From Sulfuriroseicoccus oceanibius (GTDB lineage: Bacteria; Verrucomicrobiota; Verrucomicrobiia; Verrucomicrobiales; SLCJ01): a stretch of 64,000 bases of DNA. The stretch covers positions 124,001 through 188,000 of the forward strand of contig NZ_CP066776.1 of assembly GCF_010681825.2 (NCBI RefSeq), written 5' to 3'. Positions within the stretch are counted from its first letter, which is position 1, and every line of letters starts with the position of its first letter. The translations under genes were made by a program, and so were the position numbers. The notes beneath the pieces are model-generated. The model made no database searches. It had not been told where the DNA came from and worked only from the letters and a program-made list of their open reading frames with translations. Shown one piece after another: positions 5,944 through 56,193 of the stretch.

Positions 5944-6029
5944 CTGACCACCTCACCGGCCGATACAAAGCGGCGATGCTCGCAGCACTCCCACATTTCC
6001 ATCTGCGAACATCCGTGCCCATCTGCGGC
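5944..6029 (+). repeat. 86-bp intergenic element, copy 2
   Basis: Aligns without gaps to copy 1 (2520-2605). Shared blocks include CTGACCA, ATACAAAGC, CTCCCACAT, ATCTGCGAA and ATCTGCGGC. Same orientation as the other copies. Confidence 0.7.
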
Positions 6030-6063
6030 AGCAGTATTAACTATCAGCGGCACGCCCGCTGTG

Positions 6064-6149
6064 TCCCAACTCCGCAGCGGCCAATAGAGAGCGTCGGTTC
6101 TCGCCGCTCTCCCACATTCCTATCTGTGAAAATCGGTGCCCATCTGCGG
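6064..6149 (+). repeat. 86-bp intergenic element, copy 3
   Basis: The more diverged copy. The 3' half is well conserved (CTCCCACAT, ATCTGTGAAAATCGG, ATCTGCGGC); the 5' half is weaker. It lies 34 bp from copy 2, in tandem. Confidence 0.65.
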
Positions 6150-6165
6150 CAGACAAAATGAACGA

Positions 6166-38295: not shown

Positions 38296-38667
38296 CAATA
38301 CGCACCCGCACAGCTAGCACCAGAACGCCCACCAATTAACACGCAGGCGGCACATAATACCATTTGAACGGTCAAATTGGCGGAATGGCGGAGAGCTTTT
38401 CGAGTGAGGCAAGGCGCGAACCGCGATGCTAGCGGGCTACCTGAGCTGTGAGCAACACAGCATCACTCAAAAAGATCCCGCCAAGATCACTTTCTTCATC
38501 TCTGATCCTACTCACTCAATCCCCATCGGTTCCGACAAGGTGACCGTTTAAAGGGTATAACACACCGAACTCTACTCAACCCATACCCAGCGACTCCCGT
38601 AATCACGTCCTGAAGCACGCGCCGGCACGTTGCCTCCGCATGCGCTCAACCCACCGGGAGACGCCCC
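38296..38667. other. 372-bp intergenic region holding MITE copy A
   Basis: Contains the ~202-bp MITE-like element (38357-38558) upstream of the BCCT gene. The remaining bases include the BCCT promoter and its Shine-Dalgarno GGGAG (38656-38660). No gene. Confidence 0.7.
38357..38558 (+). mobile_element. MITE-like non-autonomous element, copy A
   Basis: 202 bp, about 93% identical by hand alignment to 53543-53746. Terminal inverted repeats ATACCATTTGAACGGTCA and, at the right end, TGACCGTTTAAAGGGTAT (reverse complement ATACCCTTTAAACGGTCA), 16 of 18 matching. No transposase or open frame inside. Inner inverted arms TTGGCGG and CCGCCAA. Target-site duplication not resolved. Confidence 0.75.
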
Positions 38668-42473: not shown

Positions 42474-42779
42474 ATGCACGCGCAGCGCTGAGGGGGACGG
42501 CATTCCTGCCGTCGATGATGGGCAAGCTCACGCAAAGACCCAAAGATCCCAAAGGGCGGCCAGCTCCGGCACCGGGGAGGGGCGCAGCAGTCACCGCAGA
42601 TCGCGTTTTTTTCACAGATTGGCAGGATGAGGAGGCTTTGAAAGTGGGCGTGGTGAATCGCTCTCTACCACAAGAGTGTGGTAGCTCCATCGCAACACGT
42701 ACAATGACCATTCCCGGATGGACCAACGACACTCCTGTCGTTGCTCGCTAAGCTCCGTCATCAGTTCGGCTCCCGAACC
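42474..42779 (+). repeat. 306-bp direct repeat, copy 1
   Basis: Tandem with copy 2 (42780-43082), nearly identical over most of its length (a few substitutions and one indel). Begins ATGCACGCGCAGCGC. Contains GACGGCA-TTCC-TGCCGTC (42496-42513), CTACCACA-AGAG-TGTGGTAG (42665-42684) and CAACGACA-CTCC-TGTCGTTG (42724-42743), and a minus-strand copy of the ATCTGTGAAAA...ATCTGCGG sequence (42594-42620). Confidence 0.8.
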
Positions 42780-43082
42780 ATGCACGCGCAGCGCACGGGG
42801 GACGGCATTCCTGCCGTCGATGATGGGTAGGCTCACGCAAAGACCCAAAGATCCCAAAGGGCGGCCAGCTCCGGCACCGGGGAGGGGCGCAGCAGTCACC
42901 GCAGATCGCGTTTTTTTTCACAGATTGGCAGGATGAGGAGGATTTGAAAGGGGGCGTGGTGAATCGCTCTCTACCACAAGAGTGTGGTAGCTCCATCGCC
43001 TCCCCTCGTCCACCATTCCCCGATGGACCAACGACACTCCTGTCGTTGCTCGCTAAGCTCCGTCATCAGTTCGGCTCCCGAA
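42780..43082 (+). repeat. 306-bp direct repeat, copy 2
   Basis: The same three palindromes recur (first at 42801-42818). Truncated at its right end near TTCGGCTCCCGAA, where the rhodanese gene's 3' end begins. No transposase gene lies nearby. Confidence 0.8.
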
Positions 43083-53454: not shown

Positions 53455-53745
53455 GATCTTGGTATCGGGCTGAGAGAGACAATTTCAGCAACGATACGGC
53501 CAATGCCGGCCAAACGGTTTCACCTCGCAGAGCCCGCCCGTTATTCCATTTGAACGGTCAAATTGGCGGAATGGCGGAGAGCTTTTTCGAGTGAGGCAAG
53601 GCGCGAACCGCGATGCTAGCGGGCTACCTGAGCTATGAGCAACGCAGCATCACTCAAAAAGATCCCGCCAAGATCACATTCTTTATCTCCGATCCTACTC
53701 ATTAAAATCCTCATCGGTTCCGCCAAGGTGACAGTTTAATTGGTA
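53455..53745. other. 291-bp gap holding MITE copy B
   Basis: The MITE occupies 53543-53746, so the upstream promoter of the STAS-like gene is confined to the remaining ~90 bases. Confidence 0.7.
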
Positions 53746-53746
53746 T
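53543..53746 (+). mobile_element. MITE-like non-autonomous element, copy B
   Basis: 204 bp, about 93% identical to copy A. Left end ATTCCATTTGAACGGTCA; right end TGACAGTTTAATTGGTAT, whose reverse complement is ATACCAATTAAACTGTCA. Same orientation as copy A. Its right boundary touches the stop codon of the sulfatase-type gene (see findings). Confidence 0.75.
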
Positions 53747-56112
53747 TATTCCTCAGCCGGATCGCGCCGCAACTCCACCCGGAGGAAGAACCGATCCAAC
53801 GCATCCGGCATGTGCTTCCGCATCGCCTCCAGATACTCCGCTTCGGTATCAAACTCGATATCCCCTTCCGGTCCGATGAACCGGGACAACGTGATCTGAT
53901 CCGTCGGCCGGCCATTCCAATAACTAGGCCACGTGAAGTAGGCTTTGTAGCCGTCCCGCGAAAGGAGCATTGCCTCACGTGTCGAGCCACCCTGCGCGGT
54001 CGTCGCGACGATCGATCGTCCCTCCCCGCTCAAAAGCGAAATCCCCGCCATATCCTTTGGTGGGTTACCGTCCGTCAGGTAATCGAGCAAACTCGGCAGC
54101 ACATCAAGCTGGCTGGCATCGTCGACCAGCGGCCCACGACCATAGCTCGCAGGCCATTTGATCATCATCGGAACCCGCACTTGCTCGTCCTCAAGCGACG
54201 ACACATGCAGCCAACCACCGTGGTCCTGGAATTCCTCACCATGGTCGCCCAAGACGATCACGATCGAGTCATCATACCGACCGCTCTCCTTCAAGAATTG
54301 ACAGAACCCCTCGACCAAGTGATCCGCCCAGGCCACGGAGTTGAAGTATTTGTTCTTCACCAGCCGCACTTCCTCGTCCGAGGGGAACGCCGGAAAATAA
54401 CGTGACTCGTAATAGTCCGGGAATGGCAGCTCGAAATCCTCGTGCCAGGTGTACATGAAATGCGGCGAGTCAATGGCCACGATGTCCAAGTGCCCGCCCA
54501 CCGGACGCCCGGCGATCTGCGCTTTCAAATCCTCCATCAGCACACGCTCGCGCTCGGGCAAAGGCAGACCGAAAATCGGATCGCCTTCCACATTCTCACG
54601 CACGGCTTCAAACAATTCATCACCAGTGGAGAAGAAGTGTGGCCCCATATCGCGGAACTCCAGCTCGGATGCCGCATGCACGCGCATCTTGTATCCGGCG
54701 TCCTTGAACAGGTGAAACGTCCGCAAGCCGGGCCATCCCTGTTCTCTCGCCTCATCCCGTTCATCCTCCCAGTGGATCGGCACCTGACCAGACAAGGTTC
54801 CGAACCACCCGAGATGCGTTCCATTGGAGCTCGACCACCCGCGCCCGATCGGCTGGCACTCACGCGATTTGAACTGGTAGAGAAACGGGGTGACCTCCGG
54901 CGTCAGGGCATCCGCCCGCAGTGACTCCAGGAAAATCACGTAGATGTCAGGCTTCCGCTCCAGCTTCAACGCATCCAACTCCTGAAGCCCCGCATGATCA
55001 CGGAACTTCACATCGAAATACGCCAATCCCTCCGGCGGACGCACAGGCGAAATCATCACCGAAAACTCATTGTACTCCTGCATCCAACTGCGCCGCGCCT
55101 TCCACTCGCGCCCCACGGTCTGCTCGATCGCCGCCCCGAAAAAGCCCAGCGCAATCGCCAGTAATGCCCACACCGGTGCCATCCGGAAGCGCACTTTGTG
55201 GGAGATCCAGATCGTCGCCCACGTCAGAGCACAGGCTCCGAAGAACACAGCCAACCCAAGCGCCACTGCAGCCGGCACGCTCATCTCAACACCGCCGCCG
55301 CGCAGTTCCTCTTCCAAATTCATCAACCCGTCCCAGCCAAAGTTGTTCAGAAAATCGAGCAGGGTTTGGTTCCAAAACCCGACGATGAAGTGGTCGAGCA
55401 CGATCGCGATCGGCGCCAATGTCGCCAAACTCCAGATCACCTTGCGGCTCCACAAAGGACCATTCTGAATCGAAAGTTGGATCACAAAGTAGAACCCACC
55501 GGTCAACGCCAGCTGCGAAAACGCACGGTTCACAAAAAGGCTCAGCTTGTGCCAGCCGTCGATCTCGGTCATGCGCTCGATCAGATAGAGGTTATGCCAC
55601 ATCAACAGCAAATACAGCGCCAGGAAGAACAACGCATTCCATGGCTTTGGTCGCCGCATCCAAGCCACCGCCGAGCGGAAATCGTTGATCGTCGGCTTCG
55701 GATGCCGACTCAATTTCATCGCTCCCGCACTGATCGCCACGATCACCCCAAACCATAACGCGAGGTAGCCATAGCCAGTCACCACATTGCACGCCCCCAT
55801 CACTCCGACCAACACCTGGGCGGCCAGCGTCACCTTCAGCCACATCGTCGAATGAATCGCCTCACGGTCGCCGGATCCCAACCAACGGGCCAGCCCACCC
55901 CAAACCATGGAGCCCACAGCCGCAGCTCCCAGCATAATCAAAATGTGACTACCGAAGTAACTCGGCCCGAGATAGAGCGACAACTCGTCCGCACCAAAGC
56001 GGTGGTGCTTGATCACCGGGATCACCCCAAGCAACAGGCCACAAACCCAAACAATAGAGTGCAATAGAGCGAAAGGCATAACAAAGATCCAGATGCCCGA
56101 TCCGACAATCAT
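53746..56112 (-). CDS. Membrane sulfatase-superfamily enzyme (LtaS/YejM/EptA-like)
   Basis: A 788-residue protein from ATG 56112; an upstream GTG would add three residues. At least six hydrophobic segments precede a soluble domain from about 385. Nucleophile region: LESLRADAL near 396 and SNGTHLGWFGTLSG, whose Thr (about 432) resembles the catalytic Thr of LtaS/YejM-type enzymes. The metal motif DHGEEF is present late. No Cys-x-Pro-x-Arg sulfatase motif exists, so phospho-group transfer or hydrolysis on envelope lipids or glycans is more likely than sulfate hydrolysis. Substrate unknown. Confidence 0.8.
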   Translation of the reverse strand: MIVGSGIWIFVMPFALLHSIVWVCGLLLGVIPVIKHHRFGADELSLYLGPSYFGSHILIMLGAAAVGSMVWGGLARWLGSGDREAIHSTMWLKVTLAAQVLVGVMGACNVVTGYGYLALWFGVIVAISAGAMKLSRHPKPTINDFRSAVAWMRRPKPWNALFFLALYLLLMWHNLYLIERMTEIDGWHKLSLFVNRAFSQLALTGGFYFVIQLSIQNGPLWSRKVIWSLATLAPIAIVLDHFIVGFWNQTLLDFLNNFGWDGLMNLEEELRGGGVEMSVPAAVALGLAVFFGACALTWATIWISHKVRFRMAPVWALLAIALGFFGAAIEQTVGREWKARRSWMQEYNEFSVMISPVRPPEGLAYFDVKFRDHAGLQELDALKLERKPDIYVIFLESLRADALTPEVTPFLYQFKSRECQPIGRGWSSSNGTHLGWFGTLSGQVPIHWEDERDEAREQGWPGLRTFHLFKDAGYKMRVHAASELEFRDMGPHFFSTGDELFEAVRENVEGDPIFGLPLPERERVLMEDLKAQIAGRPVGGHLDIVAIDSPHFMYTWHEDFELPFPDYYESRYFPAFPSDEEVRLVKNKYFNSVAWADHLVEGFCQFLKESGRYDDSIVIVLGDHGEEFQDHGGWLHVSSLEDEQVRVPMMIKWPASYGRGPLVDDASQLDVLPSLLDYLTDGNPPKDMAGISLLSGEGRSIVATTAQGGSTREAMLLSRDGYKAYFTWPSYWNGRPTDQITLSRFIGPEGDIEFDTEAEYLEAMRKHMPDALDRFFLRVELRRDPAEE

Positions 56113-56193
56113 CAACAGCACCGGAACAAGCGCGGGACTCTAGCTGCAGATTCATGTCCGCTCAAGTGAGGGAATCCAGCCAGCCGCTATCAT

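Follow-up and report, generated by a model that had tools for sequence, protein, structure and literature searches.

An orphan MITE family of Sulfuriroseicoccus oceanibius contains a hairpin core conserved among MITEs with dissimilar ends across Verrucomicrobiota

The interior of a MITE, i.e. of a non-autonomous transposon framed by terminal inverted repeats (TIRs), is usually regarded as filler between the ends. In the case of the bacterial hairpin MITEs ERIC/IRU, NEMIS/Correia, RUP, and CIR, transcripts would be folded from end to end (PMC2229807). Two other described systems are close to the locus analysed here: a 3-bp TWA target duplication is the signature of PIF/Harbinger elements (PMC4482050), and REPs are palindromes of 20-40 nt, which are tagged with GTAG or CGTC (PMC3733652). 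In the element described below, the interior is the best conserved part; its non-canonical pairs are kept throughout the phylum, whereas the ends change.

The window, which is the whole stretch of 64,000 nucleotides of the S. oceanibius genome that was analysed, holds two copies of this element. In agreement with the first-pass annotation, the copies are 93% identical, have one orientation, and lose their similarity abruptly at both ends. Their features, together with the gene adjoining copy 2, are as follows:

38358..38557, plus strand: MITE copy 1, TACC...GGTA, 200 bp
38355..38357, no strand: TAA, left target-site duplication of copy 1
38558..38560, no strand: TAA, right target-site duplication of copy 1
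38358..38374, plus strand: left outer TIR of copy 1, TACCATTTGAACGGTCA, with imperfect pairing on to ~38385
38541..38557, minus strand: right outer TIR of copy 1, reverse complement TACCCTTTAAACGGTCA
53544..53745, plus strand: MITE copy 2, TTCC...GGTA, 202 bp
53541..53543, no strand: TTA, left target-site duplication of copy 2
53746..53748, no strand: TTA, right target-site duplication of copy 2, which is read on the minus strand as the TAA stop codon of the following gene
53746-56121, minus strand: sulfatase-family gene, 791 aa

The borders proposed earlier (38357-38558 and 53543-53746) pick out the right element, but each of these intervals includes one base of each duplication. The duplications themselves, which had been named as a point to check, are exact 3-bp flanks, namely TAA for copy 1 and TTA for copy 2. 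The outer TIR comprises 17 bp (TACCATTTRAACGGTCA) and extends imperfectly to about 28 bp (TACCATTTRAACGGTCAMMTTGKCGGAA). ORFs of at least 80 aa are absent from the 200-202 bp element, in agreement with the lack of coding capacity noted before. The whole window element folds far beyond shuffled sequences, with z-values of -5.8 (RNA) and -6.5 (DNA).

Two further repeats were seen in the window. Positions 42492-43082 contain a direct tandem duplication of ~305 bp with hairpin-like sequence, the pieces of which are 98-99% identical; a dispersed repeat of 81 nt (...ATCTGCGAAAATCCGCGCCTATCTG...) occurs in three copies (2527-2607, 5951-6031, 6072-6152), which are 81% identical.

The genome of S. oceanibius consists of one contig of 3,496,488 bp. 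With 46 BLAST matches to the element and 43+39 matches to its TIRs (at most three mismatches), as compared to 0+3 for a reversed control pattern, the repeat is far beyond chance. About 28 of the 46 BLAST matches are near full length and 72-98% identical to copy 1, as the first-pass annotation had predicted in postulating many copies; the rest includes fragments. For the 24 full copies for which both ends were found, the three flanking bases were compared: they match exactly in 16 cases, the mean value being 7.3 when the right flanks were shuffled (P=3e-5). The duplications are TTA, TAA, and, in one copy, CAA. The lack of an exact duplication in the other 8 of the 24 copies is expected if the copies are old, yet it is no proof. 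The copies do look old; identity to copy 1 is 98% for the best match and lies under 97% for the majority.

According to heuristic gene calls, none of the 24 scored copies interrupts a predicted gene. Nine of the 24 (L004, L006, L007, L009-L012, L014, L029) adjoin a stop codon exactly, whereas 11% would be expected for random insertion among intergenic TWA sites and TAA stops (P=6e-4); this count again depends on heuristic gene calls, and one of the nine stops is TGA. For copies located exactly at a stop codon, the duplicated TWA consequently preserves the stop. TIRs, many dispersed copies, a non-coding sequence, and TWA target duplications uphold the initial assignment to the class of MITEs; taken on its own, this reading is well supported and, in our opinion, nearly certain.

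A second repeat of the same genome has one TIR in common with the MITE and a different, REP-like interior (GTCGCGAAGCGACAG...CCGGAGGTTTCAACCTCCGG...GCGTCCCGTAGGGACGGTTTA). In addition, palindromes of 24 bp were observed, in which 17 nt of one TIR and the last 7 of the other stand end to end, flanked by TNA. These occur in two genera and represent either minimal elements or the outcome of a recurrent deletion. The loci, including two in genome G568, are:

L046:675, L047:1557, L049:6034 (minus strand), L050:1077, L052:682, L058:2180, own genome: second repeat with REP-like interior
L046 near 858-881 and L053:538-561, own genome: 24-bp end-to-end TIR palindromes
L186 (1452 on the minus strand) and L187:1922, G568: 24-bp end-to-end TIR palindromes

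A transposase with the same TIRs, which was the second prediction of the first-pass annotation, did not turn up in the S. oceanibius genome: PF01609 and PF13359 gave no match, and none of the pairs formed by TIR sites with at most three mismatches frames a transposase. The TIR sites belong to MITE pairs, fragments, the element with the REP-like interior, 24-bp end-to-end remnants, and one wide pair; inspection of those that are unpaired revealed no autonomous parent. As a candidate for an autonomous parent, a TIR pair spanning 2.9 kb (G000:C1:2,000,652-2,003,562) was considered and discarded; it encloses ordinary genes and no transposase. None of 16 PF01609 loci from three related genomes has these TIRs. 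G568 has 77 TIR sites and numerous identical copies; here, too, a transposase gene framed by a TIR pair was not found, although contig breaks could hide one. Due to the absence of PF01609 and PF13359 from the genome and of any TIR pair framing a transposase, the MITE family is an orphan.

TIR scans detected elements of this architecture, which are strongly diverged, in Rubritalea profundi, Persicirhabdus sediminis, an Akkermansiaceae MAG, and a Verrucomicrobia MAG; such elements are also present in a congener (G001). At the one window locus that is comparable in the congener, the neighbour gene is 68% identical and a match to the element is absent, which gives no sign of shared positions.

The alignment of copies from several genera revealed what the earlier reading had missed: an interior hairpin core of about 91 nt, which is conserved and common to elements with different ends. 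In the window, the core is located at two positions:

38389..38479, plus strand: hairpin core of copy 1, E-value 9.7e-17 with model R2 (the sequence is in the R2 training set) and 5.7e-24 with model R1
53576..53666, plus strand: hairpin core of copy 2, E-value 3.9e-17 with model R2 (in the R2 training set)

The consensus is CAAGGCG-NGA-N-GA-GG-GA-stem-loop-GA-CC-GA-N-GA-GC-AAC-GC. Its unpaired parts are near-invariant; these are CAAGG with an AA bulge, the three-base bulge AAC on the opposite arm, and tandem G.A mismatches. Column conservation amounts to 1.90 bits for bulges and 1.28 bits for mismatches, compared with 0.46 bits for base-paired positions of the long stem. When the comparison is restricted to one TIR type, both partners have changed in 29 of 36 pairs, with a covariation value of 0.391 (0.145 if shuffled; ~0.1 or less with partners slid). 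Covariation reaches 0.616 (shuffled: 0.159) for 38 sequences comprising the order loci and the window, and 0.638 (shuffled: 0.168) across the phylum, where the sequences are mostly outside the R2 building set; note that alignments A4 and A5 were made to a model of this hairpin structure.

The arms of palindromes can become homogenised without selection. Such homogenisation could mimic covariation, but it would erase mismatches. In tests across families, G.T cells exceeded A.C cells by 58:25 and 69:24, an excess that may be inflated by Infernal's pair priors, which favour G.U. A first G.U test based on alignment A3, which is dominated by decayed copies of the own genome, gave 53 vs 47. The conservation of mismatches and bulges beside paired bases that vary freely with compensation, in combination with the G.T excess, suggests that one particular strand acts in a folded state, either as RNA or as ssDNA.

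A search with the covariance model R1 identified the core in 76 of 289 sampled genomes of the order, which represent 27 of 50 genera, frequently in numerous identical copies. Model R2 found it in 31 of 388 genomes across the phylum Verrucomicrobiota, including other classes. Genomes possessing the core usually hold several copies. The model is specific, because no core was found among the listed genomes of genus g3, which belongs to the same order, nor in viral DNA (727 kb) that had been preselected with a loose motif. On viral contigs, the strict motif gave nothing, and the loose motif gave 120 matches with no real core among the 80 loci listed; plasmid and phage collections contained matches at chance level only. 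The core is absent from Rfam, where the element and its relatives (17 loci) had no match except an unrelated tRNA, and no published account of it was found in open-access literature text.

In order to describe the ends, 28 loci were measured. They fall into about 12 TIR groups, which are mutually no more alike than shuffled sequences at the 99% level; the ends were placed manually on the basis of the inverted repeats, and a small number, e.g. those of L163 and L157, are uncertain. The elements bearing the core are ~165-280 bp long, with the core in a constant position close to one of the ends. Exact TNA duplications (TTA, TCA, TGA, TAA) are found in many end groups, and CTAG was seen on both sides in seven cases, so that there are at least two types of target. 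G568 contains at least three MITE families, all with the core. At locus L188 of this genome, a core-bearing element of ~200 bp with other ends splits a 205-bp element and repeats TAA; this nested insertion allows the comparison of a filled with an empty site, and the match permits as many as five bases (TAAAA) to be counted as repeated. Across Verrucomicrobiota, MITE families that differ in their ends share the core as a conserved module.

At L125:1310-1480 (Rubritalea profundi), an element that carries the core and has a further type of TIR is embedded in a degenerate transposase gene of an IS. The core beside this transposase fragment was considered as a parent, and the candidate was rejected; the locus reads as a MITE that was inserted in a decaying IS.

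The recurrence of TNA duplications in many end groups would also be compatible with ordinary MITEs only, i.e. with an ancient IS-derived element that lost its transposase early and whose TIRs diverged with different IS5-type transposases. The hairpin would then be functionless, and the similarity of the interiors would result from descent and arm homogenisation. Several ends are indeed loosely alike (GAACCTG, GAGACTG, GGAGCCTG), and long hairpins are general in bacterial MITEs (PMC2229807). We nevertheless regard this explanation, in both of its parts, as rather unlikely: the TIRs, which are needed for recognition by a transposase, show much lower conservation than the interior; the G.A mismatches and bulges have been kept, whereas homogenisation would erase them; and the combination of CTAG and TNA duplications implies more than one type of transposase.

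At seven loci, two cores in inverted orientation are separated by ~17 nt, which is reminiscent of REP dimers, and such dimers are known within larger palindromes (PMC3733652). The core might be the mobile ssDNA hairpin of an HUH transposase (RAYT or TIRYT-type), with palindromic ends as its insertion sites. In that case, the TIRs would serve as targets or carriers, and not as the mobile unit. A folding signal that is strand-specific and the occurrence of 24-bp end-to-end TIR remnants without a core are in line with this proposal. However, whole elements, ends included, carry duplications of 3 bp or 4 bp, and HUH elements are not known to make such target duplications. As the core moreover occupies its fixed place near one end and is longer than REPs, we consider a REP-like origin very unlikely.

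The RNA-like covariation, the G.U excess, and an intergenic location that often adjoins stop codons could finally indicate that the core is an RNA serving the host, namely a transcribed structured RNA or an mRNA-processing site kept for gene regulation. A precedent is given by ERIC and NEMIS transcripts, which affect neighbouring mRNAs (PMC2229807). Against this speaks the orientation of the copies relative to tandem genes, which is unbiased (6 vs 4). Moreover, the window element contains no terminator-like site, Rfam offers no match, and the copies of the own genome decay independently of each other. We give this alternative very little credence.

The explanation we favour, and judge to be reasonably probable as a whole chain, combines a trans-mobilised MITE with a conserved core that works as a folded single strand and helps the element. 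The element is a non-autonomous TIR transposon that inserts at TWA and duplicates 3 bp. Its mobilisation in trans would be due to a DDE transposase that was not found in the own genome and is most likely of the TNA-targeting IS5/PIF-Harbinger kind. The folded single strand may be ssDNA during replication or transposition, or a short RNA; the core might then bind a factor of the host or the transposase and help the element to spread, its most likely role being that of a part of a selfish element. The core could acquire new ends when MITEs that are nested or adjacent recombine. A more radical version, which seems doubtful to us, is that selection has as its actual unit a selfish hairpin found throughout the phylum: it would fold single-stranded, be recognised by a common factor, and swap ends as carriers. 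If this were true, the core would stay constant while the TIR families around it appear and vanish. Provided that the core plays a part in mobility or survival, it offers a handle on orphan mini-elements that multiply without a matching transposase, and the model can detect such elements where end-based searches fail.

A comparison with known systems places the element as follows. The TTA, TAA, and CAA duplications of the own copies and the TNA duplications of the sister elements resemble those of the IS5/PIF-Harbinger group (PHIS). In contrast to that group, the element lacks a transposase, and PF01609 and PF13359 are absent from the genome; it is therefore not classed as a member, and is possibly mobilised by one. 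With REP/REPIN/BIME palindromes and TIRtrons it shares many extragenic hairpins, conserved unpaired bases, and, in some cases, inverted pairs. Unlike REP/REPIN, the core has ~91 nt instead of 20-40, has no GTAG/CGTC end tag, and is embedded in TIRs with target duplications. ERIC/IRU, NEMIS/Correia, RUP, CIR, and Coxiella QMITE2 are, like the element described here, 100-300 bp long and gene-less, and possess TIRs, duplications, and many intergenic copies (PMC2229807; PMC10969869). These known hairpin MITEs were described family by family, whereas here one core, with its conserved non-canonical pairs, recurs throughout a phylum in families whose ends are dissimilar.
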